Source of the DNA: Clostridiales bacterium GWF2_38_85
GTDB lineage: Bacteria; Bacillota; Clostridia; Oscillospirales; CAG-382
Assembly: GCA_001797275.1 (NCBI GenBank)
Contig: MGOY01000028.1
Coordinates: 1-64,000 of the forward strand
Length of the DNA: 64,000 bases
Reading direction: 5' to 3'
Below the pieces are notes generated by a model. The model was not told the origin of the DNA, ran no database searches, and saw nothing but the letters and a program-made list of their open reading frames with translations. The position numbers were made by a program, and so were the translations under genes. Shown here one piece after another: positions 19,736 to 48,933 of this stretch (position 1 is its first letter; each line of letters starts with the position of its first letter).

Positions 19736-20887
19736 TTAACCTAAGAGCTCAATATTCTTGAGAAATAATAGCGGATCTTTCTTCTCCCCGTTAACAATAA
19801 CTTCAAAATGCAAATGTGGGCCGGTGCTCTTACCTGTACTGCCAATGTTTCCAATTATATCTCCAACCTTGACTTCCTGACCTACAACAACATTGATTTG
19901 ACTTAAGTGAGCGTATCCTGTTTGCAAACTGCCTTCATGTTGTATAATAATATAATTACCATAACCATTATATGATTCCTGAGCAAATACAACCACACCG
20001 TCTGCTGCTGCCATAACCGGATCGCCATAGCATGAAACTGTATTGTTAGAATGTACAATATCTATCCCGTTATGATAATCCCTCATTGAAGGTCTCCAAC
20101 CGAATTGAGAGGAAATGCGTCCAATATAAGGTAAATCAAACAGCTTTAATGATGCAGGTGTTTTTATTGTTGAATTTAAAATTCCTCTTTCAACAATTTG
20201 AATTTGCGGTTCAGATATAATATTCTCGCTGACTGTCTCTTGGGCAACTATATCTCCATTTATATAAGTAACAGTAATTAATTCTTCGGATGTACCGTCT
20301 GCACCGTTTTGAAGTGTTCTTGAATAACTTGAATTTTTATCGCTAAGATCAAGATAAACTATATCGTATGGAACTATTTTACTTACTGTTTTTAGAGATG
20401 TATATGTAACATCGAGCTTCAATGTATCCTTATCCACCATCAAACTGTTGCCAACAATTCCGAACACTTTTGACAATTCATCTACAGACAAGAATAAATC
20501 AGTATCAAATTCACTTTTATCTACATTGATTTCATTTGCAATTTTTACATCAACAACACTTTCATCAACTGCATAATTTGAAGATAATAAGGTTTTTACA
20601 TTTAATAAGGTATTATATATAATATCACTGTCTTCGCAAACTGCAACAAAATTTCCGTCAATAAACAACCCATATCCCTGTTTTAAATTCTGATGCTTAT
20701 TGACAGTAAAACTATCATTATTAGTTATTGAAGAAGCAACACTTTCAATATTTTTATTATGTAATGCATCAACCCTGTCAATGTTATTTATGATAATTAG
20801 AGATGATACTATTGAGATGCAAGCGATTAAATAAAATGCAAGCATATAATGTTTTGGTTTTTTTCTTGATAACAAACGAAAAAACAT
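19736..20887 (-). CDS. M23 family metallopeptidase with N-terminal anchor and G5-like region
   Basis: 383 residues. A basic N-terminus (RKKPKHY) precedes one transmembrane helix (about 15-33). The middle region includes ELITVTYINGDIV and EPQIQIVERG, which fit a G5-like module. The C-terminal LytM/M23 domain (about 265-380) has YHNGIDIVHS (His and Asp zinc ligands), GYAHLSQI and GPHLHFEVI (HxH). It is a membrane-anchored peptidoglycan endopeptidase of the DipM/SpoIIQ-like architecture. An AAGGAGC site precedes the ATG. A promoter lies at 20986-21014. Confidence 0.92.
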   Translation of the reverse strand: MFFRLLSRKKPKHYMLAFYLIACISIVSSLIIINNIDRVDALHNKNIESVASSITNNDSFTVNKHQNLKQGYGLFIDGNFVAVCEDSDIIYNTLLNVKTLLSSNYAVDESVVDVKIANEINVDKSEFDTDLFLSVDELSKVFGIVGNSLMVDKDTLKLDVTYTSLKTVSKIVPYDIVYLDLSDKNSSYSRTLQNGADGTSEELITVTYINGDIVAQETVSENIISEPQIQIVERGILNSTIKTPASLKLFDLPYIGRISSQFGWRPSMRDYHNGIDIVHSNNTVSCYGDPVMAAADGVVVFAQESYNGYGNYIIIQHEGSLQTGYAHLSQINVVVGQEVKVGDIIGNIGSTGKSTGPHLHFEVIVNGEKKDPLLFLKNIELLG

Positions 20888-20985
20888 AAAAGTGCTCCTT
20901 GCGTAAATTTTGTTCCGGAGGTATATAGCCTCATTGAATTGATTTGATAATCAAAATAGATAGCATAATAATATCGAAAAGTTCA

Positions 20986-28021: not shown

Positions 28022-28795
28022 TTAAGTGTTACCGAACTTTCTAAATCTCTGATATCTTTTTTCTAACAAATCGTTTTCATCTATATTCATTGATGCATTT
28101 ATCGTTTCCAATAGTAATCGCTTTATGGTTTCGTATGATTGTTTTTGTCCGAGTTTTTCTGATATAACCTTGTCTATTATATTCAACTTATATAATTCTT
28201 TTGATGTTAATTTAAGACACTCAGCTGCTTCTGCTGCTTTACTCGAATCTTTCCAAAGTATGCTTGCGCAGCCTTCGGGTGAAATTACAGAATAAATTGA
28301 ATTTTCAAGCATCCATACTTCATCTGCAACAGCAAGCGCAAGCGCTCCGCCTGAACCGCCTTCGCCGATTATTATTGAAATTACCGGTACTTTCAGTGTC
28401 ATAAGATTATATAGACATTCTGCTATTGCTTGCCCCTGCCCTCTTTCTTCTGCACCTATACCGCAATATGCGCCGGAGGTGTCAACAAAACAGATCACAG
28501 GACGGTTAAATTTTTCGGCTAACTGCATTTGTCTTAATGCTTTTCTGTACCCTTCAGGCTGTGCCGAACCGAAATTTCTCGATATTTTATCTTTTGTATC
28601 CTGACCTTTTTCAAGACCTATGACTGTAACAGGAGTTGTATCAAGAAATGCAATTCCGGAAATAACAGCATTATCATCTGAAAACCTTCTGTCACCGTGA
28701 AGTTCAATAAAGTCGGTGAATATGTTTTCAATATAATTTTTTGTAGTTGCGCGTCCGTTTGCTCGAGCTTTTGTCACTATATCATATGCTGCCAT
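28022..28795 (-). CDS. accA: Acetyl-CoA carboxylase carboxyltransferase subunit alpha
   Basis: 257 residues, shorter than the about 315 of proteobacterial AccA because the N-terminal helical extension is absent. Crotonase-fold motifs are visible: [61 protein letters not shown] and [15 protein letters not shown]. With AccD it transfers the carboxyl group from biotin to acetyl-CoA, giving malonyl-CoA. It is the last gene of the operon, 22 bp after accD. Confidence 0.95.
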
Positions 28796-28817
28796 CTGAT
28801 TATCCTCCTCCCATTTA

Positions 28818-29678
28818 TTATTTATAGTTATGAAGCTGAAGTAATTTTGTCAGATACTCTTTCAGCTTTTTTCTTTCTACAATATCATTTATAAATCCGG
28901 TTTTTAAGAGATATTCAGCTTTCTGAAATCCGTCAGGCAGCTTTTGTCTTATTGTCTGTTCAATAACACGAGGTCCGGCAAAACCGACAAGTGCATTTGG
29001 TTCTGCAATTATTATATCACCCTGCATAGCAAAGCTGGCAGTTACACCACCCATAGTCGGATCGGTTAAAACTGTGATATATAACAAGCGGTTATCTGAA
29101 TGTTTTTTTACTGCACCGCTGACCTTTGCCATTTGCATGAGAGATAAAATACCCTCCTGCATTCTGGCTCCACCTGAAACACAAAAACCAATAACCGGAA
29201 GTCTGTTTTCTGATGCGAATTCAAATATTCTCGTTATCTTTTCACCGACAACTGTTCCCATAGAACCCATCATAAAGTACGGTTCCATAACGAATATAGC
29301 TGAATTTATACTATTTATTTTGCATACTCCTGTAATTACAGCTTCATTTTCGCTACTTTCGAGTTGCGAATTTTTTAGTTTTTTATCATAATTCGGGAAG
29401 TCGAGTATGTTTTCGGATTTTAAATCAGTATTATGTTCTATAAAACTGTCTTCATCTGCTATCATATTAAGCCGTTGGCGTGAATTCATCCTGAAATGAT
29501 GATTGCAATAACTGCATACAACTAAATTTTCGTTAAGCTCATCATTGAACAACATTTTATTGCATGATGGACAGCAAACACACATTTCGTTCGGAATGTT
29601 AGCTGATGGTGTTTTACTTTGTTTTATATTACCTTCAAGTGCAATTTTTGGTTTTTTAAATATACCTTTTCTGATCAT
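28818..29678 (-). CDS. accD: Acetyl-CoA carboxylase carboxyltransferase subunit beta
   Basis: 286 residues. An N-terminal zinc ribbon, C-x2-C (CPSCNKML, about 35-38) and C-x2-C (CSYCNHHF, about 52-55), precedes the carboxyltransferase domain with [27 protein letters not shown] and [16 protein letters not shown]. It partners with AccA. The start overlaps the accC stop by four bases (ATGA-type), a sign of translational coupling. Confidence 0.96.
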
Positions 29679-31021
29679 ACAATATCAATACCTCCGTTTT
29701 TCAGGACATCGGTTGAATAATCTCCGTTAGTAAAAGTTTCACTTGAAACTATCTCAAGCAGGTAATCTATGTTTGTATCTATGCCTTCAATGACAAGTTC
29801 ACATAGCGCTGCTTTCATTTTACGTAATGCTTCTTCGCGTGTCGGAGCATATACAATCAATTTTCCAAGCAATGAATCATAGAACGGTGGAACGATATAA
29901 TCCTGATAAATAGCTGTATCAAATCTAATCCAAGGACCTCCGGGAATATGAAGGAAGGTTATCTTACCTGCGCATGGTTTGAATTTATTTTTCGGATCTT
30001 CTGCATTAATGCGGCATTCGATTGCATGACCGTAAAATTTAACTGGAGCTTGCGTGAAATCGATTGCTATACCTGCAGCAACTCTTATCTGCCACTTTAC
30101 AAGATCGATACCTGTTACCATTTCGGTTACAGGATGTTCAACTTGAAGTCTTGTATTCATCTCACAAAAATAGTAATTGTTTCTTTTATCAAGCAAGAAT
30201 TCAATTGTTCCAACCCCTGTATATCCGACTGTTTGTACTGTCTTTGTAGCTGTATCAATCAGTTTTTTACGCAATTCGACAGTTACCACCGTTGAAGGAC
30301 TTTCCTCAATCATCTTCTGATTGTTACGCTGTACAGAGCAGTCTCTTTCGCCTAAACAAACTATGTTGCCGTAATTGTCGCAAATTATCTGCATTTCTAT
30401 ATGTTTAATCGAAGTCAGATATTTTTCCATATAAACACTGCCATCACCGAATGCTGCTTTTGCTTCGGTTGTTGCAATTGTGAAAGCATTTGCAAGCTCA
30501 GCTTGTTTTTCGACGACCCTTATTCCTTTACCACCGCCGCCTGCACTTGCTTTTATCATTATCGGATAACCGATTTTTTCAGCTTCAACTTTTGCCTTTG
30601 TCATATCATCAATTATTTCACTGCCGTTTATAACAGGAACTCCTGCATTTCTCATTGTTATACGTGCTGCATTTTTATCGCCCATTTTTTTTATTACTTC
30701 ACTTTTTGCACCTATAAAAACGATTCCGCATTGTTCACACATAGCAGAAAATTTTGCGTTTTCGGATAACAAGCCGTATCCCGGGTGAATCGCTTCAACC
30801 TTACATGAAACTGCAATAGTGAGTATTGCACTTATATTCAAATAGCTGTCCTTAACCTGTGCAGCACCGACACAATAGCTCTCGTCGGCAAGACTGACAT
30901 GCATAGCATTTCTGTCAGCTTCCGAAAATACTGCTACTGTTGATATACCCATTTCTTTGCAGGCTCTGATTATTCTGACTGCTATTTCGCCACGGTTGGC
31001 TATTAATATTTTTGAAAACAA
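29675..31021 (-). CDS. accC: Acetyl-CoA carboxylase biotin carboxylase subunit
   Basis: 448 residues, the normal length. ATP-grasp enzyme with FSKILIANRGEIAVRIIRA at the start, KASAGGGGKGIRVV (glycine-rich loop), the ERDCSVQRNNQK segment, EMNTRLQVEHPVTE (catalytic region) and a C-terminal biotin carboxylase domain. It carboxylates biotin on AccB using ATP and bicarbonate. It lies 21 bp after fabZ and overlaps accD by four bases. Confidence 0.97.
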   Translation of the reverse strand: MFSKILIANRGEIAVRIIRACKEMGISTVAVFSEADRNAMHVSLADESYCVGAAQVKDSYLNISAILTIAVSCKVEAIHPGYGLLSENAKFSAMCEQCGIVFIGAKSEVIKKMGDKNAARITMRNAGVPVINGSEIIDDMTKAKVEAEKIGYPIMIKASAGGGGKGIRVVEKQAELANAFTIATTEAKAAFGDGSVYMEKYLTSIKHIEMQIICDNYGNIVCLGERDCSVQRNNQKMIEESPSTVVTVELRKKLIDTATKTVQTVGYTGVGTIEFLLDKRNNYYFCEMNTRLQVEHPVTEMVTGIDLVKWQIRVAAGIAIDFTQAPVKFYGHAIECRINAEDPKNKFKPCAGKITFLHIPGGPWIRFDTAIYQDYIVPPFYDSLLGKLIVYAPTREEALRKMKAALCELVIEGIDTNIDYLLEIVSSETFTNGDYSTDVLKNGGIDIV

Positions 31022-31042
31022 TTGCCAACTCTCCTTATTGAA

Positions 31043-31459
31043 TCAGTTTTTAATTAAAGCGAATGAAAATTCGCCGCTGACACATATTTTACCGTTCACA
31101 ATCCCTTTGCATTCAGCAAAATAGAAAGGCGGCATTTCTCTTATTAATGAACACTCAAAATTGATTGTATCTCCAGGTTTAACGACTGTTTTGAACTTGA
31201 CTTTATTCATTCCGCTGAACAACGGTGTACAGCCCGATATTTTCTCACCAAGCAGCACACAGCAGGTTTGCGCTGCCATTTCACATTGAATTACTCCCGG
31301 TACAATCGGATTATTGGGGAAATGACCTTGCAGAAAGTATTCATCACCCTTTACAATATAGCTGCCATGAGCTATATTATCATCACTGACATATGCCTCA
31401 TCAACCAAAAGCATTGGTTCACGATGCGGTAATATGTTCTTCAGTTCATTTCTGTCCAA
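31043..31459 (-). CDS. fabZ: 3-hydroxyacyl-ACP dehydratase
   Basis: 138 residues. The hotdog-fold motifs LPHREPMLLVDEA and GHFPNNPIVPGVIQCEMAAQ carry the catalytic His and Glu. FSGMNKVKFKTVVKPGDT completes the family pattern. It dehydrates 3-hydroxyacyl-ACP in each elongation cycle. It lies between accB and accC, the order seen in many Firmicutes. Confidence 0.96.
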   Translation of the reverse strand: MDRNELKNILPHREPMLLVDEAYVSDDNIAHGSYIVKGDEYFLQGHFPNNPIVPGVIQCEMAAQTCCVLLGEKISGCTPLFSGMNKVKFKTVVKPGDTINFECSLIREMPPFYFAECKGIVNGKICVSGEFSFALIKN

Positions 31460-31472
31460 AACAATACCTCCG

Positions 31473-31889
31473 TTATTTCAATCTTAACAGTGTTTGACCA
31501 TACTCAACAATACTTTCATTCTGAGCACAAATCTCAATGATTGTTCCGCTGATTTCTGTAGTAATTTCATTCATAAGCTTCATAGCTTCTATAATACATA
31601 CAACATCACCTTTGCTTATATTCTGACCTATTTTAACAAACGGTTGACTTTTGGGTGAGGAAGATGCATAGAATACACCTGCAAACGGTGCTTTTATGAT
31701 TATGCCTTCGTCTTTTAACATAGTTACTTCCTGTTTTTGTGATGAAGCTTCAACTGTTGCAGGAGCTACTGGGACAGCTGAAATCTGGCGTTTCATAACT
31801 ATCTTTTTATCGCCTTCGCAAACTTCAAGCTCGGACAAATTCATCTTGTTCAAGACATCAGCTAAAGCCTTTATTTCTTTTATATCCAT
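31473..31889 (-). CDS. accB: Biotin carboxyl carrier protein of acetyl-CoA carboxylase
   Basis: 138 residues. An N-terminal DIKEIKALADVLNKMNLSELEV region, a flexible Ala/Pro/Val/Thr linker (about 36-55), then the biotinyl domain with IIEAMKLMNEI. The biotin acceptor is Lys104. It shuttles carboxybiotin between AccC and AccA/AccD. It lies 20 bp after fabF. Confidence 0.96.
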   Translation of the reverse strand: MDIKEIKALADVLNKMNLSELEVCEGDKKIVMKRQISAVPVAPATVEASSQKQEVTMLKDEGIIIKAPFAGVFYASSSPKSQPFVKIGQNISKGDVVCIIEAMKLMNEITTEISGTIIEICAQNESIVEYGQTLLRLK

Positions 31890-31908
31890 AAAATTATACC
31901 TCTACAAT

Positions 31909-33141
31909 TCAAGTTATTAATGGTTTAAAGACCAAACATACATTATGTCCGCCGAACCCGAGAGAAGTCGATAATACAAAATCAACCTTTACTTTTCTTG
32001 CCTGATTCGGAACATAATCAAGATCACATTCTTCATCCGGAACTTGATAACCTATTGTCGGTGGAAGAATGCCATTATTCAAAGCAAGCACAGATGCGAT
32101 TGCCTCAACTGCACCGGCTGCTCCGAGCATATGACCTGTCATGGATTTTGTAGAACTGATCATTATTTCATATGCTTTCTTCCCAAACACATTCTTTATC
32201 GCAAGTGTTTCCGCTTTATCGTTTAAATGTGTGCTTGTTCCATGAGCGTTTATATATATTTTATCGTTTTCCGTTATATTAGCTTCTTTTTTCGCGAGAT
32301 CTATAGCATTTGTTGCGCCAAGTGCATCCGGATGCGGTGCTGTTACATGGTAAGCATCACTCGTATTACCGTAGCCGCAAACCTCTGCATAAATTTTTGC
32401 ACCTCTTGCTACTGCATGATTATATTCTTCGAGTATAAGTATTCCGGCACCTTCACCCATAACAAAGCCGTTTCTTTCTTTATCAAAAGGGATTGAGCTT
32501 CTTTTCGGATCAGTACTTTCTGACAAAGCAAAGCAATTTGCAAAGCCTGCGATTGCGAGAGGGTTTATTGCAGCTTCAGAACCACCGGCGATAATTGCAT
32601 CCGCTCTACCGTATTTTATTGCAAGATATGCCTCACCAATTGTATTTGAAGATGTTGCACAAGCAGTTACAACCGGAAGAGTCGGTCCCATTGCTTTAAA
32701 TTTAATCGAAATCATTCCTGTTGCCATATTACCAATCATCATAGGGATGAAATGAGGAGAGACTCTTGAGGCGCCCTTTGTATACAGTTTGATTGATTCA
32801 TCATAGAATGTTGCCATTCCACCGATGCCAGAACCAACATAAACACCAAGTCTTGTGTTTTCATAATCTATCAAATTGCTGTCAGCCATTGCCTGAACCG
32901 CAGCTGCATACGCATACTGTGTGTAAAGGTCTGATTTTCTTATTTCACTTTTATCGGCAAAATATATTTTTGGATCAAAATCTTTTACTTCTGCATCAGT
33001 TTTGATTTTTATATCAGTTGTATCAAAACGTGTTATAAAATCAATTCCGCTTATACCGTTTGATAAGCTATTCCAGAATGAATTTATATCATTCCCGACA
33101 GGTGATATTACACCTATTCCTGTTATAACTACTCTTTGCAT
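31909..33141 (-). CDS. fabF: Beta-ketoacyl-ACP synthase II
   Basis: 410 residues from the ATG at 33141, preferred over an in-frame ATG at 33159 because AGGGTGA lies just upstream and the protein then starts MQRVVITGIGVISP as usual. The catalytic triad is visible: Cys in TACATSSNTIGEAY, His in NAHGTSTHLNDKAE and His in STKSMTGHMLGAAG. It condenses malonyl-ACP with acyl-ACP. It directly follows fabG. Confidence 0.97.
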   Translation of the reverse strand: MQRVVITGIGVISPVGNDINSFWNSLSNGISGIDFITRFDTTDIKIKTDAEVKDFDPKIYFADKSEIRKSDLYTQYAYAAAVQAMADSNLIDYENTRLGVYVGSGIGGMATFYDESIKLYTKGASRVSPHFIPMMIGNMATGMISIKFKAMGPTLPVVTACATSSNTIGEAYLAIKYGRADAIIAGGSEAAINPLAIAGFANCFALSESTDPKRSSIPFDKERNGFVMGEGAGILILEEYNHAVARGAKIYAEVCGYGNTSDAYHVTAPHPDALGATNAIDLAKKEANITENDKIYINAHGTSTHLNDKAETLAIKNVFGKKAYEIMISSTKSMTGHMLGAAGAVEAIASVLALNNGILPPTIGYQVPDEECDLDYVPNQARKVKVDFVLSTSLGFGGHNVCLVFKPLIT

Positions 33142-33159
33142 ATTCACCCTGCTTTCCAC

Positions 33160-33900
33160 TTAAATATATAATCCGCCATCGACCTTTATAACTTCACCTG
33201 TAATATAACTTGCCATATCTGAAGCTAGAAAAACTGCCAATGACGCAATATCTTTCGAATTGCCAAGTCTTTTCATCGGTATCTGAGCTTTAGCTGATTC
33301 AAGCATTTCAATAGGTAAAGCACCGGTCATATCAGTTTCAATAAAACCGGGTGCTATTGCATTGCAGGTTATATTTCTTGCTCCGAATTCTTTTGCAACT
33401 GTCTTTGTTAATCCGATAATTCCTGCTTTTGAAGCTGCATAATTTGCTTGACCGGGGTTCCCCATCATGCCTGAGACAGATGATATATTAATGATTCGTC
33501 CGCTTCTCTTTTTTATGAAATGCTTGCAGGTATTCCGAATCATATTGAAAGTACCTTTTAGATTTGTATCGATAACCGAATCAAAATCTTCCTCTGACAT
33601 CTGCATCAATAATTTATCTTTTGTAATACCTGCATTGTTGACAAGAATGTCAATCCCACCGAAATCATTGATTATTAGATTACAAACATTCTGACATGAA
33701 TTAAAATCAGCTACATTGCATTGATAGGCAGCTGCTCTTACACCATATGTAATCGCTTCTTTACAAGCTTCTTCTGCTTTTACAACATTCCCGTTGTAAA
33801 GAATTGCAACATCAGCTCCGGCTTCTGCCATTGCAAACGATATTGCTTTTCCTATACCTCTTGAAGCTCCTGTAATAACGGCAACCTTGTTCTTCAGCAC
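33160..33900 (-). CDS. fabG: 3-oxoacyl-ACP reductase
   Basis: 246 residues. Classical short-chain dehydrogenase: VITGASRGIGKAIS (cofactor loop), NNAGIT, ISSVSGMMGNPGQANYAASKAG (catalytic Ser, Tyr, Lys) and IAPGFIETDMT. It reduces 3-oxoacyl-ACP with NADPH. The start overlaps the fabD stop by seven bases. Confidence 0.97.
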   Translation of the reverse strand: MLKNKVAVITGASRGIGKAISFAMAEAGADVAILYNGNVVKAEEACKEAITYGVRAAAYQCNVADFNSCQNVCNLIINDFGGIDILVNNAGITKDKLLMQMSEEDFDSVIDTNLKGTFNMIRNTCKHFIKKRSGRIINISSVSGMMGNPGQANYAASKAGIIGLTKTVAKEFGARNITCNAIAPGFIETDMTGALPIEMLESAKAQIPMKRLGNSKDIASLAVFLASDMASYITGEVIKVDGGLYI

Positions 33901-34808
33901 TGGAGTAACTCCTTTACTTTTATAATATCATCGGTATTTTCAACATTTATTGTTTTAATTTTACTTGATATTTTCTGAATCAAACCGCAAAGCACCTTAC
34001 CTGCTCCGACTTCAATAAATGTATCAACTCTGTCGGCTATCATGTTATTGATTGTATCTTCCCATCTCACCGGATGGTTGACCTGGTCTGCTAAAGTATC
34101 AGCAATATCTGATGGGTACGGTTTTGCGGATATATTTGCATAAACAGGTATTTTTGCTTTATTGAATTTTACTGTTTTTAAATATTCTCTCAGCTTTTCT
34201 GATGCTTCATTCATAAACGGTGAATGAAAAGCTCCGCTTACAGTAAGCTTAATTGTTCTGCCGCCTTCTTTTTTTATTGCTCCAATTAAATCATCACATG
34301 ATTCAACAGCACATGCCACTACAATCTGTCCGGGCGAGTTGTAGTTTACCGGATATGAATTATCGACTATTCTACATATTTCTTCAACCTTTTCGTTATC
34401 AAGCTTTAGGACGACAATCATTGCACCTTTATTTTTTTCGGAGCATTCCTGCATGAATTGACCTCTCATGCAGACGAATCGGAATGCATCTTCAACAGTC
34501 AGCATTTCTGAGAATGCTACTGCTGCTGTTTCGCCAAGCGAAAATCCTGCAACACAATCAGGTGTTATACCTTCGGCTTTCAATGCTTCCGCACAAGCTA
34601 AATCCATTGTAAATAGAGCCGGTTGTGTATTTGAGGTTATAGACAATTGCTCAGTATTACCATTGAAACACAAATCTTTAATGCCGGGTTTTATAGATTC
34701 TGCAATATCAAATATTTTCTTAGCTGCAGAGTTGTTTTCATACATTTTATTACCCATTCCGGAATATTGCGCTCCCTGACCGGCAAATACAAAGGCTATT
34801 TTACCCAT
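33894..34808 (-). CDS. fabD: Malonyl-CoA:ACP transacylase
   Basis: 304 residues. FVFAGQGAQYSGMG at the N-terminus, nucleophile Ser in AGFSLGETAAV (GxSxG), conserved Arg in CMRGQFMQE, and His in VSGAFHSPFM. It loads malonyl groups onto ACP. It overlaps fabK by 13 bases and fabG by seven, so these three are tightly coupled. Confidence 0.97.
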   Translation of the reverse strand: MGKIAFVFAGQGAQYSGMGNKMYENNSAAKKIFDIAESIKPGIKDLCFNGNTEQLSITSNTQPALFTMDLACAEALKAEGITPDCVAGFSLGETAAVAFSEMLTVEDAFRFVCMRGQFMQECSEKNKGAMIVVLKLDNEKVEEICRIVDNSYPVNYNSPGQIVVACAVESCDDLIGAIKKEGGRTIKLTVSGAFHSPFMNEASEKLREYLKTVKFNKAKIPVYANISAKPYPSDIADTLADQVNHPVRWEDTINNMIADRVDTFIEVGAGKVLCGLIQKISSKIKTINVENTDDIIKVKELLQC

Positions 34809-35743
34809 TGTAAATTACCTCTCATCACCTTTTCAGCTTCCTCAAACAGCTCAACAATAATTTCTCTGCATGTCTGTTCTTTCTTTACCATCGAAGCAAT
34901 TTGTCCGGCTATAACACAGCCCTCGACAATATCACCTTCGATAGCTGCTCTGCGTAATACTCCAAGTCCAAGCTTTTCAAGTTCTTCGTTTGAAATACTG
35001 CTATCATACTCTTTTTCAAGATAGTTTCTTGTAAATCTGTTTTTTAATGATCTTACCGGATGACCTAACCTTTTTCCTGTTAAAACAGTATCTATATCTC
35101 TTGCATTCAAAACTCTGTCTTTATAATTACGATGAACATTACATTCTTTTGCAGTTATAAAGCGAGTGCCGAGTTGGACACCGACTGCGCCGAGCGAAAA
35201 TGCTGCTGCAACACCTCTGCCGTCTGCAATACCACCTGCTGCGATGACCGGAATATTTACAACATCACAAACCTGTGGGACAAGAGCCATTGTTGTCAGC
35301 TCTCCGACATGACCTCCGGATTCACCACCTTCGGCAACAACTGCAAAAGCACCGTCGCGTTCCATCTTTCTTGCAATTGCTGTTGAAGGTACAACAGGTA
35401 TTATTTTAATTCCTGCAGCCAGCCATGTCGGCATATACTTTGAGGGACTTCCCGCTCCGGTTGTCAGGACTTTTACCCCCTCTTCGATTACGGTTCTTGC
35501 AACTTCATCGGCAAAAGGGCTCATCAGCATTACATTGACACCAAACGGTTTTGAGGTCATTTCCTTTGTTTTTCTGATTTCTGCTTTCAGTTGCTCAGCA
35601 TTGGAATTCATACCCGCAATTATACCAAGACCACCTGCATTTGAAACTGCAGCAGCAAGCTCAGCATTTGCAATCCAAGCCATACCGCCTTGAAAAATCG
35701 GATATTCAATCTCCAATCCTTCACAAATTATTGTTTTAATCAT
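34796..35743 (-). CDS. fabK: FMN-dependent enoyl-ACP reductase II
   Basis: 315 residues from the ATG at 35743. An in-frame ATG at 35755 touches the AAAAGGA site and is less likely. Nitronate-monooxygenase-like TIM barrel with YPIFQGGMAWIA, AEGGESGGHVGELTTMALVPQ and IAAGGIADGRGVAAAFSLGAVGVQLGTRF, the FabK pattern. It reduces trans-2-enoyl-ACP with NAD(P)H and FMN. No FabI is present, so this is the enoyl reductase of the operon and would be expected to be triclosan-tolerant. Confidence 0.95.
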   Translation of the reverse strand: MIKTIICEGLEIEYPIFQGGMAWIANAELAAAVSNAGGLGIIAGMNSNAEQLKAEIRKTKEMTSKPFGVNVMLMSPFADEVARTVIEEGVKVLTTGAGSPSKYMPTWLAAGIKIIPVVPSTAIARKMERDGAFAVVAEGGESGGHVGELTTMALVPQVCDVVNIPVIAAGGIADGRGVAAAFSLGAVGVQLGTRFITAKECNVHRNYKDRVLNARDIDTVLTGKRLGHPVRSLKNRFTRNYLEKEYDSSISNEELEKLGLGVLRRAAIEGDIVEGCVIAGQIASMVKKEQTCREIIVELFEEAEKVMRGNLQWVK

Positions 35744-35820
35744 TGCATTTACCATTCCTTTTGAAAAGCAAGTATAACATTATGATTGCCTTGCTGATCG
35801 AAGTGTTTTAAATTTTAATT

Positions 35821-36042
35821 CTAATTTATCTTTGATTCAATAAAATTAACAACATCGCCGACGGTTTTGATTGATTCACGATCATCAACATTGATACTGT
35901 ACTCATCTTCTATATTCATTATAAGTTCAGCAATATCAAGTGAATCGAGATTTAAATCCAATAGTGCTGTTTCCGATGTTATTGTATCATCTTCCTCGCC
36001 CTTCAATTCTGCAATCATTCCCATTACTTTTTTAAATACCAT
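35821..36042 (-). CDS. acpP: Acyl carrier protein
   Basis: 73 residues from the ATG at 36042, chosen because GGAGG lies nine bases upstream. An in-frame upstream ATG at 36081 would lie inside fabH. The phosphopantetheine site is Ser34 in LNLDSLDIAEL. The protein is acidic (GEEDDTITSE, EDEYSINVDD) as expected. It carries growing acyl chains for the whole operon. It lies between fabH and fabK. Confidence 0.95.
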   Translation of the reverse strand: MVFKKVMGMIAELKGEEDDTITSETALLDLNLDSLDIAELIMNIEDEYSINVDDRESIKTVGDVVNFIESKIN

Positions 36043-36062
36043 AATTATCTTCCTCCAAAAAT

Positions 36063-37031
36063 TTATTTTTTCTTTTTCCATTCAATTATGCATGTACCAG
36101 TTGTAAGACCTGCACCGAAGGCGCAAAAAATCAATTTATCGTTCAATTTTAATTTGCCTTCTTTATTCAACTCATCAAGAAGTATGGGAATACTTGCAGA
36201 TGAGGTGTTGCCGTATTTTTCAATATTGTGTGGGAATTTTATTTCGGGTTGCTTCAACTTTTTTCGTGCTGTATTTATTATACGTATATTTGCTTGATGT
36301 AATATGAAAAGAGATATATCTTCAGATGAAAGAGCATTATTTTCAAGTATACTATTTATCTCATCGATAATAGATGAAACCGCAAACATAAATACTTCCT
36401 GCCCGTCCATTGTAAGTTGACTTTTATAATCATCAGCTTTTGAAAATGGGTTATTACCTCTAACACCAGGAACATTGAGAATTTCGGCATTTGCTTGACT
36501 TTTATTACACACTGCAATAAGACCGTTTCCCTTTTCGAGAACAACAGCACCTGCTCCGTCACCAAATAATACACAAGATGCTCTGTCTTGCCAATCAACA
36601 AGCCTTGAAAGTGATTCCGCACAAATTATCAAAACTTTACTTACCCGTCCAGAATCGAAATATACGGATGCAAGATCCATTGCATATATAAATCCCGAGC
36701 AAGCCATGTTTATATCAAAAACAAACTTACTCTTTGAACCGATTTTATCACGAATGAGGCAGCTCATTGCAGGTGAAATATAGTCGCCTACCAATGAAGA
36801 GCATATAATCATGTCGATTTCATCGGCTTTTATATGAGCATCGAAAATTGCATTTTGAGCAGCTTCACAAGCTAAATCAAGCAATTTTTCATCAGTCAAA
36901 ACCCGTCTTTCTCTAATACCTGTTCTTGATGAAATCCATTCGTCATCAGTTTCAAGAAAGTTCATTAAATCGAAATTTGTAATTACTTTTTTAGGAACAC
37001 TGCTCCCAGTACCGGATATATAAAAACTCAT
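36063..37031 (-). CDS. fabH: Beta-ketoacyl-ACP synthase III
   Basis: 322 residues, first gene of the operon. Active-site Cys in DINMACSGFIYAMD, His in FILHQANIRI and Asn in YGNTSSASIPI; SRTGIRERR near the N-terminus binds CoA. It starts fatty acid synthesis by condensing acetyl- or branched acyl-CoA with malonyl-ACP. It is preceded by a consensus promoter with two FabT-like operators, facing a MarR-family gene. Confidence 0.97.
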   Translation of the reverse strand: MSFYISGTGSSVPKKVITNFDLMNFLETDDEWISSRTGIRERRVLTDEKLLDLACEAAQNAIFDAHIKADEIDMIICSSLVGDYISPAMSCLIRDKIGSKSKFVFDINMACSGFIYAMDLASVYFDSGRVSKVLIICAESLSRLVDWQDRASCVLFGDGAGAVVLEKGNGLIAVCNKSQANAEILNVPGVRGNNPFSKADDYKSQLTMDGQEVFMFAVSSIIDEINSILENNALSSEDISLFILHQANIRIINTARKKLKQPEIKFPHNIEKYGNTSSASIPILLDELNKEGKLKLNDKLIFCAFGAGLTTGTCIIEWKKKK

Positions 37032-37088: not shown

Positions 37089-37103
37089 CTTTGAATATCA
37101 AAG
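37089..37103. promoter_or_regulatory. FabT-like operator O1 at the fab transcription start
   Basis: A perfect 15-bp palindrome CTTTGA-ATA-TCAAAG, located just downstream of the -10 box of the minus-strand fab promoter. It resembles the AGTTTGAxxxTCAAAxT sites bound by FabT in streptococci. Confidence 0.7.
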
Positions 37104-37113
37104 CTTTTCTACT

Positions 37114-37141
37114 ATTATACACATTTTACGATGTTTGTCAA
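37114..37141 (-). promoter_or_regulatory. Promoter of the fab/acc operon
   Basis: Minus strand TTGACA (complement of 37136-37141), 16-bp spacer, TATAAT (complement of 37114-37119), both hexamers perfect. Transcription should start near 37107, about 75 bases before fabH. Confidence 0.85.
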
Positions 37142-37147
37142 TAGTAT

Positions 37148-37160
37148 TTTGAGAATCAAA
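37148..37160. promoter_or_regulatory. FabT-like operator O2 upstream of the -35 box
   Basis: TTTGA-GAA-TCAAA, a second copy of the operator palindrome, seven bases upstream of the fab -35 hexamer. Together with O1 it brackets the promoter. Confidence 0.65.
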
Positions 37161-37253
37161 GTAATATTTTTTTTGAACGATAGAGTAATTTTACTTTCTG
37201 GTTTATCAAAAATACAACAAAATAATGTTTTCCGTATTTAAATTGATAAAATG

Positions 37254-37282
37254 TTGACAAAAAAAATTATTAAATATATAAT
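37254..37282 (+). promoter_or_regulatory. Perfect consensus promoter of the MarR/FabT-like gene
   Basis: TTGACA (37254-37259), 17-bp spacer beginning with seven A, TATAAT (37277-37282). It is divergent from the fab promoter, with 112 bp between the two -35 boxes. Confidence 0.85.
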
Positions 37283-37870: not shown

Positions 37871-37895
37871 ACTCTGCAGCTTTGAACTGCAGAGT
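37871..37895. terminator. Terminator after the FabT-like gene
   Basis: A perfect 9-bp stem ACTCTGCAG/CTGCAGAGT with a seven-base loop and a following T-rich tract on plus (TATATTTTT); TATTTTTTATT follows on minus. It is shared with the convergent glycosyltransferase gene. Confidence 0.82.
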
Positions 37896-44968: not shown

Positions 44969-44988
44969 TTAGTTGCACACGCAACTAA
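44969..44988. promoter_or_regulatory. Candidate MarR operator
   Basis: A 20-bp perfect palindrome TTAGTTGC-ACAC-GCAACTAA just after the -10 box, at the expected transcription start, 30 bp before the marR start codon. This fits autorepression of the exporter operon. Confidence 0.7.
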
Positions 44989-45017
44989 TTTTTCTTTGCC
45001 GGAAGGAGACTGTTTCT

Positions 45018-45455
45018 ATGATCGATTCCTTGATGAAACATATCAAACGAATATCGAGATGCTTCACTTTATATCGTGAAGATAAATTAAAGGATAAAGG
45101 TATAAACGGTTATCAGCACACATACATTCTGAAAATTTACCAGAACCCGGGTATATCTCAGGAACAGCTTGCTAATATGATATTCGTTGATAAAAGCAAT
45201 GTAACAAGGCAATTATCTGCTCTCGAACAAAACGGTTTCATCGAACGAATTCCCAATACTGATGATCAAAGGCAGCTTCTTGTCTTCCCCACCGAAAAAG
45301 CTAAGGATCTATATCCTCTTGTATGCGACACAATACGGGAATGGAACAAATCTATATTATCAGGTCTATCGCCTGATGAACAGAAACAACTGATATCTCT
45401 TCTTGATAAAGTAGCCGCTCAAGCAATAAAAGCTACTGAAGTAATACAAAAATAA
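45018..45455 (+). CDS. MarR-family transcriptional regulator of the ABC exporter operon
   Basis: 145 residues from the ATG at 45018, which has GGAAGGAG upstream. An earlier in-frame ATG at 44973 lies inside the operator and lacks a site. Winged-helix motifs: ISQEQLANMIFVDKSNVTRQLSALEQNGFIERIPNTDDQRQ. It probably represses its own operon by binding the palindrome at 44969-44988 and is released by a drug or metabolite. The first ABC gene starts 10 bp after its stop. Confidence 0.9.
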   Translation: MIDSLMKHIKRISRCFTLYREDKLKDKGINGYQHTYILKIYQNPGISQEQLANMIFVDKSNVTRQLSALEQNGFIERIPNTDDQRQLLVFPTEKAKDLYPLVCDTIREWNKSILSGLSPDEQKQLISLLDKVAAQAIKATEVIQK

Positions 45456-45464
45456 AGGATTATT

Positions 45465-47180
45465 ATGAAAAAATATTTTGAATATATAAAACCGCAAATA
45501 CCAAAAATGAGCTTTGGATTATTCATTAAATTCATAGGTACTATAATGGATCTATTACTTCCCTGGATACTGGCATTTATGATCGATGATGTTGTTCCGA
45601 CAAAAAATAAAAGTAACATTATTTTCTGGGGTTGTATGATGGTTCTGTTTTCTATATTGGCAGTTACAGCAAATATTGTTGCAAACCGAATGGCATCAAG
45701 GGTTGCAATGAATACAACTCAGAAAATAAGATATGATCTTTTTAAGAAAATACTGTATTTATCATGTAAACAGATTGATGATTTTACTATCCCATCGCTT
45801 GAATCAAGACTGACCACTGATACCTACAACCTCCATCAAATGACCGGATCGATGCAAAGACTTGGCGTCAGAGCTCCGATTTTATTAATAGGAGGTATAA
45901 TAATAACGCTTTCCCTCGACCCTATTTTATCGCTCACATTAATTTCGGTTCTACCTATTATCGGATATACAGTTTATAAAATTTCAAAAAAAGGCATTCC
46001 GTTATATACTGAACAGCAAAAAGCAACCGATAATATGGTCAGAGTAGTTCGTGAAAATGCAGTTGGGGTCAGAATTATAAGAGCACTGTCAAAATCGGAT
46101 TTTGAACAACAAAGATTTGATTCGGTAAATAATGAGGTTACCGGAAAAGAAACAAAAGCATCCGTGATTATGGCTATCAGCAATCCGCTTATGAATCTGT
46201 TCTTTTACTTAGGACTGACAATGGTTATACTTGTTGGTGCATTCAGAGTAAACAGCGGCTTTACACAGGCTGGTACTATTATCGCATTTTTAACATATTT
46301 CACCATTATACTTAATGCAATGCTCTCGATTACAAGAATGTTTGTTATGCTTTCAAAAGCGATTGCTTCAGCAAAAAGAATCAACGAAGTTCTCACTGCT
46401 GAAGAAGATCTGAAAATGTATCCGATCGATCATGTTGACAACGATTATCATATTGAATTCAATAATGTTTCATTTTCATACAATAAGAAACAGAATAATG
46501 TCGATGATATATCATTTAAACTCAAAAAAGGCGAAACACTGGGTATAATAGGTGCAACCGGTTGTGGAAAAAGTACAATAATAAATCTTTTAATCAGATT
46601 TTATGATCCCGACAAAGGTCAAATACGAATTAATGGTGACAACATCAACAGTATACCCTTTAATAAACTCCACTCAAAATTCGGAATTGTATTTCAGAAT
46701 GATATTCTATTTGCCGACTCAATCGGTGAAAATATAAGCTTTGGCAGAAAGCTGCCTAATGAAGAAATCGAAAAAGCTGCCGAATTTGCACAGGCAAAAC
46801 TATTCATTGATGATTTAGAGGAAGGCTACAGCTATAACCTAACATCAAAGGGCACCAACATCAGCGGCGGGCAGAAACAAAGATTGTTAATTTCACGCGC
46901 AATTGCGTCCAATCCTGAAATTCTGATTTTAGATGACTCATCAAGTGCATTGGATTATAAAACAGATGCTGAATTCAGAAAGGTACTTCTGAATAATTAT
47001 AAAGATACAACAACTATTATAATTGCTCAACGAATCAGCTCCATACGAAATGCGGATCTTATTATCGTTATGGATGAAGGTAAAATTATTGTGATGGGTA
47101 AACACTCGGATTTAATCAAAGATTGTACACTCTACAAACAAATCTCCGATTCTCAGATGGGAGAGAAGCAATATGAATAA
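45465..47180 (+). CDS. ABC exporter half-transporter, degenerate catalytic site
   Basis: 571 residues: six-helix membrane domain (about 1-315) fused to an ATP-binding domain. Walker A GATGCGKST, Q-loop FGIVFQND, signature ISGGQKQR, and Walker B LILDDSSSALD in which Asp replaces the catalytic Glu. That substitution is typical of one partner of heterodimeric multidrug exporters such as BmrCD. The gene overlaps the next by eight bases. Likely role is drug or lipid export under control of the upstream MarR protein. Confidence 0.93.
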   Translation: MKKYFEYIKPQIPKMSFGLFIKFIGTIMDLLLPWILAFMIDDVVPTKNKSNIIFWGCMMVLFSILAVTANIVANRMASRVAMNTTQKIRYDLFKKILYLSCKQIDDFTIPSLESRLTTDTYNLHQMTGSMQRLGVRAPILLIGGIIITLSLDPILSLTLISVLPIIGYTVYKISKKGIPLYTEQQKATDNMVRVVRENAVGVRIIRALSKSDFEQQRFDSVNNEVTGKETKASVIMAISNPLMNLFFYLGLTMVILVGAFRVNSGFTQAGTIIAFLTYFTIILNAMLSITRMFVMLSKAIASAKRINEVLTAEEDLKMYPIDHVDNDYHIEFNNVSFSYNKKQNNVDDISFKLKKGETLGIIGATGCGKSTIINLLIRFYDPDKGQIRINGDNINSIPFNKLHSKFGIVFQNDILFADSIGENISFGRKLPNEEIEKAAEFAQAKLFIDDLEEGYSYNLTSKGTNISGGQKQRLLISRAIASNPEILILDDSSSALDYKTDAEFRKVLLNNYKDTTTIIIAQRISSIRNADLIIVMDEGKIIVMGKHSDLIKDCTLYKQISDSQMGEKQYE

Positions 47181-48933
47181 CAATGTAAATGTTAAACCAG
47201 ATAAAAAATATGTTTTATTAAGGCTTTGGAATTACCTTTATCATTACAAATGGAATCTGCTTCTCGTTTTCATTCTGTCATTACTTAGCAATGTACTTGC
47301 ATTAATCGGTCCAAAGCTTGCGGGAGATGCAATTGATGCAATAGGCATTGTTCCAGGTCAGGTTCAGTTTAACAAAGTATTTATATATATATTTTTTATG
47401 CTTATATTTTATATCCTTTCATCCTGTCTTTTATATATACTTTCGGTTGTAATGATAAAATTAAGCCGCAAGGTAACATATAAAATGAGAAAGGATCTTT
47501 TCGATAAGCTTACAACACTTCCTGTCGGTTTTTTTGATAAAACTCAAACAGGCGAAATAGTCAGCAGAATCTCATATGATATTGATACGGTGAACGCTTC
47601 ATTATCACATGATTTGCTTCAGGTTTCAACAAGCGCTATTACTGTCATCGGTTCATTAATTATGATGATTATTATTTCTCCGTTAATGGTGACGATATTT
47701 TTACTTACAATTCCCTGTTCGATTCTTTTTACAAAATATATGACAAAAAAAGTTAGACCTTTATACAGAAAACGTTCCGCAAATCTCGGTGAGCTGAACG
47801 GATATGCCGAGGAGGTTATTTCCGGGCAAAAAACAATTAAAGCATATCACCAGGAGGAATCCATAATTGAACGTTTTGAGAAAAGGAATAATAATGCTGT
47901 TGAAGCTTACTTTAAAGCCGATTATTATGGAAGTACAACCGGTCCCGGGGTGAATTTTATCAACAATCTTTCACTTTCTCTTGTTAGCGTTTTCGGTGCA
48001 TTATTATTTCTGTTTGGGAAAATAACACCCGGTAATCTTTCTTCCTTCGTTTTATATTCAAGAAAATTTTCCGGACCTATAAATGAAATGGCAAACATCA
48101 TCAGTGAACTTCAGTCAGCTCTTGCTGCTGCTGTGAGAATGTTCAAAATGATTGATGAAGTACCCGAACCTGCTGACAGTATTGATGCGAAAGCACTCAA
48201 TAATGTTGAAGGAAATGTTGAATTCAAGAATGTTGATTTCGGATATGTCCCAAACAAACAAATAATTAAGAATTTAAATTTGAAAGTACAACAAGGCGGC
48301 CTTATTGCTATTGTCGGGCCTACCGGCGCCGGAAAAACTACGATTATCAATCTTTTGATGCGTTTTTATGATCCGCAGAACGGTTATATTTATGTCGATG
48401 ATAATGATATAATGAAAATAACACGCAAATCCTTACGTCGAGCTTATACAATGGTATTACAGGATACATGGTTGTTCACAGGTACTATCTTCGAAAATAT
48501 TGCATATGTTAAGAAAGATGCTACCCTTGAAGAAGTTATCGGAGTCTGTAAAGTTGCTAAAATTCATTCATTTATCACTCAGCTTCCCAACGGCTACAAT
48601 ACTGTTATTAACGAAGATGGTATGAATATCTCCAAAGGTCAGAAGCAGATGCTTACAATCGCCAGAGCAATGCTTGTCGATTCCAAAATGTTGATTTTTG
48701 ATGAAGCAACTTCAAATGTTGACACTAGAACAGAACAGCAGATTCAGGAAGCTATGATACAGCTTATGCAGGGCAAAACCTGTTTTGTAATAGCACATCG
48801 TCTTTCTACAGTAAAGAATGCAGATATTATTCTTGTTGTAAAAGACGGTCATATTATTGAACAAGGAAAGCATGACGAGCTACTTCAAAAGAACGGTTTT
48901 TACACTGGATTGTTCAACTCACAATATGAATAA
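47173..48933 (+). CDS. ABC exporter half-transporter, canonical Walker B partner
   Basis: 586 residues: membrane domain plus ATPase. Walker A GPTGAGKTT, Walker B MLIFDEATSNVD with catalytic Glu, His switch FVIAHRLST, but an altered signature ISKGQKQM instead of LSGGQ. Paired with the first subunit (normal signature, missing Glu), this gives one functional and one degenerate ATP site, as in known heterodimers. The operon ends at the terminator 48942-48975. Confidence 0.94.
   Translation: MNNNVNVKPDKKYVLLRLWNYLYHYKWNLLLVFILSLLSNVLALIGPKLAGDAIDAIGIVPGQVQFNKVFIYIFFMLIFYILSSCLLYILSVVMIKLSRKVTYKMRKDLFDKLTTLPVGFFDKTQTGEIVSRISYDIDTVNASLSHDLLQVSTSAITVIGSLIMMIIISPLMVTIFLLTIPCSILFTKYMTKKVRPLYRKRSANLGELNGYAEEVISGQKTIKAYHQEESIIERFEKRNNNAVEAYFKADYYGSTTGPGVNFINNLSLSLVSVFGALLFLFGKITPGNLSSFVLYSRKFSGPINEMANIISELQSALAAAVRMFKMIDEVPEPADSIDAKALNNVEGNVEFKNVDFGYVPNKQIIKNLNLKVQQGGLIAIVGPTGAGKTTIINLLMRFYDPQNGYIYVDDNDIMKITRKSLRRAYTMVLQDTWLFTGTIFENIAYVKKDATLEEVIGVCKVAKIHSFITQLPNGYNTVINEDGMNISKGQKQMLTIARAMLVDSKMLIFDEATSNVDTRTEQQIQEAMIQLMQGKTCFVIAHRLSTVKNADIILVVKDGHIIEQGKHDELLQKNGFYTGLFNSQYE

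Follow-up and report, generated by a model that had tools for sequence, protein, structure and literature searches.

A FabT-like regulator and two predicted operators at the divergent fatty-acid synthesis promoter of a clostridial genus, with an SPT-like operon as a putative second target

The DNA analyzed here (the window) is a stretch of 64,000 nucleotides from Clostridiales bacterium GWF2_38_85, contig MGOY01000028.1. It carries an operon for fatty-acid synthesis with the gene order fabH, acpP, fabK, fabD, fabG, fabF, accB, fabZ, accC, accD and accA, and, divergently, a gene for a MarR-family regulator (Table 1). Pfam was run on the products of fabH to accB, and fabZ, accC, accD and accA were named from their sequence by eye. 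An earlier note on this DNA had placed a TTGACA-16-TATAAT promoter ahead of the fabH-accA operon and two FabT-like sites around it, and both statements were borne out: the hexamers match the consensus at every position, and the two palindromes flanking them are exact copies of TTTGA-n3-TCAAA. The proposed positions, one at the transcription start and the other just upstream of the -35 hexamer, also hold, as operator 1 starts 11 bp downstream of the -10 hexamer and operator 2 ends 6 bp upstream of the -35 hexamer. Operator 1 probably lies just inside the fab transcript, in the 5' leader of fabH. The motif is the one that the note had attributed to streptococcal FabT, and it agrees with the published streptococcal site ANTTTGATTATCAAATT (PMC10138225).

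Table 1. Coordinates of the features discussed, in the window unless a locus is named (G000, genome of the window; G001, sister species).
Feature	Location	Strand	Evidence or remark
fab operon	28022..37031	-	ORFs; Pfam for fabH to accB; rest named by eye
Operator 1 (predicted) CTTTGAATATCAAAG	37089-37103 (exact palindrome 37090-37102)	.	conserved in L035
fab operon promoter TTGACA-16-TATAAT	37114..37141 (TTGACA 37141..37136; TATAAT 37119..37114)	-	12/12 consensus match; conserved in L035
Operator 2 (predicted) TTTGAGAATCAAA	37148-37160	.	conserved in L035
MarR gene promoter TTGACA-17-TATAAT	37254..37282	+	12/12 consensus match
FabT-like MarR-family regulator, 168 aa	37359..37865	+	Pfam MarR; sequence and fold matches
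Hairpin resembling a terminator, downstream of the MarR gene and readable in both directions	37871..37895	+	
SPT-like operon	L127 9838-13877 (G000 C37)		FabT-type site upstream
SPT-like operon	L128 4866-8908 (G001 C37)		FabT-type site upstream
SPT-like gene	L053 2676-3851 (G000); L128 7718-8908 (G001)		

Two exact sites are unlikely to have come together in this intergenic region by chance: when 100,000 sequences with the same length (327 bp) and make-up were simulated under a first-order Markov model, 427 carried one exact site and a single one carried two or more. Over the whole window the motif is not enriched, with 7 matches at no more than one mismatch against 10.85 expected.

We then turned to the regulator itself, which passes the Pfam MarR cut-off. 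Its best match of solved structure by sequence is pneumococcal FabT (6jbx, E 1.5e-22; next match 1.5e-6), and its predicted fold, modelled from 12 sequences with a mean pLDDT of 88, superimposes on the same structure with Z 18.3 and an rmsd of 1.2 over 142 residues (next row Z 15.6). Among NCBIfam models, that of FabT (NF050133) also fits best, at 107.5 bits. Since FabT is the best match by sequence and by predicted fold, yet the score stays below the curated equivalog cut-off of 200 bits, we call the protein FabT-like without assigning it to the FabT equivalog. Residue H112 is invariant in all 12 rows of the alignment and, judging from the sequence and fold matches, would align with residue 105 of pneumococcal FabT. 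A FabT mutation designated H105Y occurs in S. pyogenes, where the numbering may differ from that of the pneumococcal protein (PMC10138225).

The divergent MarR gene was expected to have a perfect TTGACA-17-TATAAT promoter of its own, with no operator nearby, and this is what we found: no TTTGA-n3-TCAAA site with one mismatch or fewer lies near that promoter in the window. In the sister species, a site with one mismatch, TTTGTTAATCAAA, stands 12 bp before the -35 hexamer of the regulator promoter (locus L035), so that autoregulation is possible there. The suggestion that autoregulation may differ from that of known systems thus gains support insofar as the regulator gene lies outside the operon and has its own promoter with no clear site.

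Among 60 relatives searched, a single further genome belonged to the genus, that of the sister species (G001). Its regulator (locus L006, the same as L035) is 77-78% identical to that of the window, and it shares the divergent layout, with an exact site on either side of the fab promoter. When the two intergenic regions were aligned, the arms of both palindromes and both hexamers of the fab promoter stood out as conserved islands, and the 16 bp spacer and most of the flanks were much less conserved. The two fab sites are 58 bp apart in the window (about 5.5 turns) and 61 bp apart in the sister species. The reading as a FabT-like regulator with its operators is thereby supported by sequence, predicted fold, and conserved sites and layout.

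To place this arrangement among its relatives, 65 distinct loci, the window included, were compared; these are the best matches from three regulator searches, two of which contributed no more than 30 loci each, and not all matches, and four duplicates (L070, L071, L072 and L074, identical to L045, L043, L041 and L035) were dropped. In the regulator tree (65 regulators and 6jbx; partial locus L046 excluded from the tree only, and both L043 and L071 included although they are the same region), the window pairs with L035 at a support of 100/99. This pair stands next to L036 with a weak support of 85/65, and the order of the deeper forks is tentative. Sites were scored against promoter-like sequences in a scan that accepted promoters with up to three mismatches and sites with up to one, and that preferred flanked promoters, a choice that favours finding brackets. 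On that footing, 36 of the 65 best-match loci have one or two sites adjoining a promoter-like sequence (both sides in 13, upstream only in 6, downstream only in 17), and 29 have neither. In all 13 bracketed promoters the upstream site, which in L092 has one mismatch, ends 4-7 bp before the -35 hexamer, within an allowed range of 0-15 bp, and the downstream site follows the -10 hexamer by 2-19 bp. Outside the genus, the bracketed promoter drives the regulator gene and a degV gene behind it in 10 of 11 loci, the eleventh (L046) being cut by a contig end; in L042 and L044, fabH follows as well.

Other site layouts were seen among the relatives. In L090, L104, L109, L110, L119, L124 and L126, two palindromes lie 16 bp apart at or after the -10 hexamer of the regulator promoter, four of these seven loci having one mismatch in one site. 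Upstream of the FabT-like genes of L011 and L013 no TTTGA-n3-TCAAA site was found, and palindromes of a TTAG..CTAA type were seen by eye near the gene start, a hint that related fabT-fabH operons may use a different class of operator. The window itself holds another MarR-type gene, behind which lie two genes that by eye resemble ABC exporter halves (44973-48933); this MarR-type gene appeared as a weak match in the regulator search of the relatives.

A genome search for TTTGA-n3-TCAAA upstream of other lipid genes had been proposed, and it yielded a second conserved target. There are 12 exact copies of the motif in the genome of the window and 16 in the sister genome, against 5 and 6 occurrences of a reversed control pattern. 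Contexts were inspected for 27 of these 28 sites (all but the one on contig C61 of G001), and besides fab they gave one target common to both genomes, an operon led by a gene resembling that of serine palmitoyltransferase (SPT). Moreover, when the inner palindrome was required to have TTGACA within 2-18 bp behind it, four places in the genome of the window and two in the sister genome qualified, with none for the reversed control; the places common to both are again fab and spt, and the two further ones are at the start of an ORF and inside an ORF. The reverse order, TATAAT followed by the core palindrome, stayed near the control level (7 versus 3 in G000, 4 versus 4 in G001). In eight relatives, the exact site followed by TTGAC was found at the fabT promoter in six and at two places inside ORFs, and at no fab or spt promoter.

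Six of the 12 exact copies in G000 fall within ORFs. The remaining six comprise the two fab sites, the spt site and sites at a type II pantothenate kinase promoter, a SulP-like gene and an M23-peptidase-like gene. The kinase site (L047 2501-2513) falls just after a TTGACA-17-TATAAT promoter, but the promoter of its sister orthologue has neither an exact nor a near site, so the kinase is kept as no more than a possible member of the regulon. The site TTTGATAATCAAA at 20943-20955 of the window lies 55 bp upstream of the M23-peptidase-like ORF (19740-20887, minus strand). No exact site lies upstream of plsX in either genome of the genus; in G000, a site with one mismatch is located inside the ORF preceding it.

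We then focused our attention on the spt operon. In both genomes its promoter-like sequence reads TTGACA-17-TAATAT, and an exact palindrome lies upstream of the -35 hexamer by 13 bp in the genome of the window and by 11 bp in the sister genome. Of 295 genomes from the order, 42 carry SPT-like genes (E <= 1e-110), and 30 loci from these 42, each with at least 350 bp upstream, were scanned. An exact palindrome was found within 350 bp upstream of the gene in both loci of the genus and in none of the 28 others, one of which (L136) has a site with one mismatch. The putative control of spt therefore coincides with the genus, and as its two genomes belong to that one genus, this evidence may amount to a single evolutionary event.

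It is unlikely, although well short of negligible, that the regulator does control fab in the manner of FabT while the spt site arose by chance or the operon makes another amino-lipid. A chance origin would agree with the small sample of two genomes and with a gap to the -35 hexamer that is wider than the 4-7 bp of the bracketed promoters; against this, the site forms a conserved island beside the -35 hexamer in an upstream region that has otherwise diverged between the two species. As for the product, the SPT-like enzyme finds its best solved match in the serine palmitoyltransferase 3a2b (E 4.5e-120); among NCBIfam models, that of SPT (NF047600) scores best, with 518.7 and 516 bits in the two species. 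This is below the cut-off of 640, and the product of the gene behind it, whose best model is KdsR (3-ketodihydrosphingosine reductase), likewise scores 235.7 bits against a cut-off of 400, which leaves room for another amino-lipid. Nevertheless, the SPT model leads the next model by more than 120 bits in both species. A homologue of the KdsR-like gene follows the SPT-like gene in 27 of the 30 compared loci. The operon continues, after the SPT-like gene and the ketosphinganine-reductase-like SDR gene, with a gene that matches nothing in Pfam or NCBIfam and then with a gene for a class III aminotransferase. To our knowledge, neither of these last shared genes is a known sphingolipid gene, which also speaks for another amino-lipid.

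Based on these results, we consider it probable that the regulator works as a FabT-type repressor with two independent fab operators, an acyl-ACP co-repressor, uncoupled expression and spt as a second target, a reading that draws on sequence, on a structural model and on analogy. A regulator dimer would bind TTTGA-n3-TCAAA at each operator of the divergent fab promoter, one adjoining the upstream edge of the -35 hexamer and the other just downstream of the -10 hexamer; either could block RNA polymerase, and occupation of both would tighten repression. Long-chain acyl-ACP would be the co-repressor, by analogy with FabT, such that an acyl-ACP surplus would shut off the fab operon. Because the regulator has its own promoter with no clear operator, its level would be largely independent of that operon. 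In this genus, the same repressor would also control the SPT-like/ketosphinganine-reductase-like operon through the single site upstream of its -35 hexamer.

The earlier note had instead read the paired sites as a sign of looping or cooperative repression. In such a scheme, repressors bound on both sides of the promoter would contact one another, either cooperatively or by forming a short loop, and trap or exclude polymerase. This did not find support, and we regard it as improbable. Two sites do surround one promoter in 13 of the 65 best-match loci, and the helical phase is still compatible with a loop, but the spacings between bracketing sites range over 48-66 bp in the 13 promoters with no significant phase (Rayleigh p about 0.15, n=13; 0.22 with one close relative removed, n=12). 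Furthermore, six loci have the upstream site only and 17 the downstream site only, so one side seems enough. The near-constant distance to the -35 hexamer, combined with a variable distance between the sites, favours two independent polymerase blocks; a two-sided steric block would explain it more simply than a loop, and fits better.

There is only a slight chance that the palindromes bind another regulator and that the MarR protein encoded next to them has other targets. Binding by this protein is predicted from sequence, and the promoter of its own gene has no site, as such an alternative would have it; however, the same motif precedes FabT-like genes, site(s) adjoin a promoter-like sequence in more than half of the best-match loci, the protein is closest to FabT, and the published FabT site is identical in motif (PMC10138225). 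A role of the palindromes as RNA hairpins or terminators is very improbable: the downstream one probably lies in the fabH leader, but the upstream one is outside the fab transcript and neither is listed as terminator-like.

The proposed co-repressor raises the matter of where acyl-ACP would come from. In Lactobacillales, imported fatty acids are converted to acyl-ACP through FakAB and PlsX, which strengthens FabT binding, according to a 2026 perspective (PMC13046290). PlsX is present in both genomes of the genus. DegV (FakB, PF02645) was detected in neither of them, both being 96-97% complete, while the same search was positive in 6 of 14 control genomes. As DegV/FakB went undetected in both, the signal, if it is acyl-ACP, is more likely endogenous, that is, probably home-made and not derived from Fak-imported fatty acids. 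We also observed that DegV is undetected in these two genomes although FabT-like relatives sit next to degV.

The regulator resembles FabT of Streptococcus, Enterococcus and Lactococcus (6jbx; PMC13046290 and PMC9083066) in its MarR fold, TTTGA-n3-TCAAA operator and fab target. The 2026 perspective argues that FabT operons of Lactobacillales are perfectly coupled because fabT, first in the fab operon, is cotranscribed with its targets (PMC13046290). Here, in contrast, the gene is divergent with its own promoter-like sequence and no clear site, two predicted operators bracket the fab promoter, the score of the protein stays under the FabT cut-off of NCBIfam, DegV/FakB is undetected, and an SPT-like operon is a putative second target. 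The clostridial fabT-degV(-fabH) operons (L036, L041-L045, L075, L082, L083 and L092) share sequence, motif and two bracketing sites with it, but their bracketed promoter drives the regulator and degV, an autoregulatory arrangement, whereas the bracketed promoter of this genus drives the divergent fabH. FapR of Bacillus and Staphylococcus likewise represses fatty-acid synthesis genes, but belongs to a different protein family and has malonyl-CoA as its ligand. Bacterial serine palmitoyltransferase operons (3a2b; PMC11334938) also join an SPT-like enzyme to a ketosphinganine-reductase-like gene; the operon described here differs in belonging to Clostridia and in having a FabT-type operator upstream in this genus, its activity being predicted. 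The regulator would therefore work like FabT and differ in its uncoupling, its bracketed divergent promoter, the apparent lack of DegV and the second target.

What is new here is the exact site upstream of the -35 hexamer of the SPT-like operon in both genomes of the genus. Among the papers listed in our literature searches, judged by title and abstract opening and, for PMC11334938 and PMC10191378, by passages of the text, we found nothing on FabT in connection with sphingolipids or on FabT-type control of bacterial sphingolipid genes in Clostridia. Nothing was found there either on the divergent fabH/FabT palindrome arrangement in Clostridia, and bracketing FabT sites in Lactobacillales may already be described. 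The possible sphingolipid link, seen in two genomes, is the part that a specialist would not expect.

We give an even chance to the broader proposal that, in a genus with no detectable FakB, a FabT-type repressor was uncoupled from its operon and taken on to coordinate the synthesis of fatty acids with that of sphingolipid-type long-chain bases, in response to endogenous acyl-ACP. We know of no description of FabT as a membrane-composition switch joining these two pathways. The genus would then be a natural case of uncoupled FabT, allowing a direct comparison with the coupled FabT of Lactobacillales, and would suggest what FabT senses when FakB is missing. In addition, it would point to a specific protein as a candidate for regulating sphingolipid-like synthesis in Clostridia.
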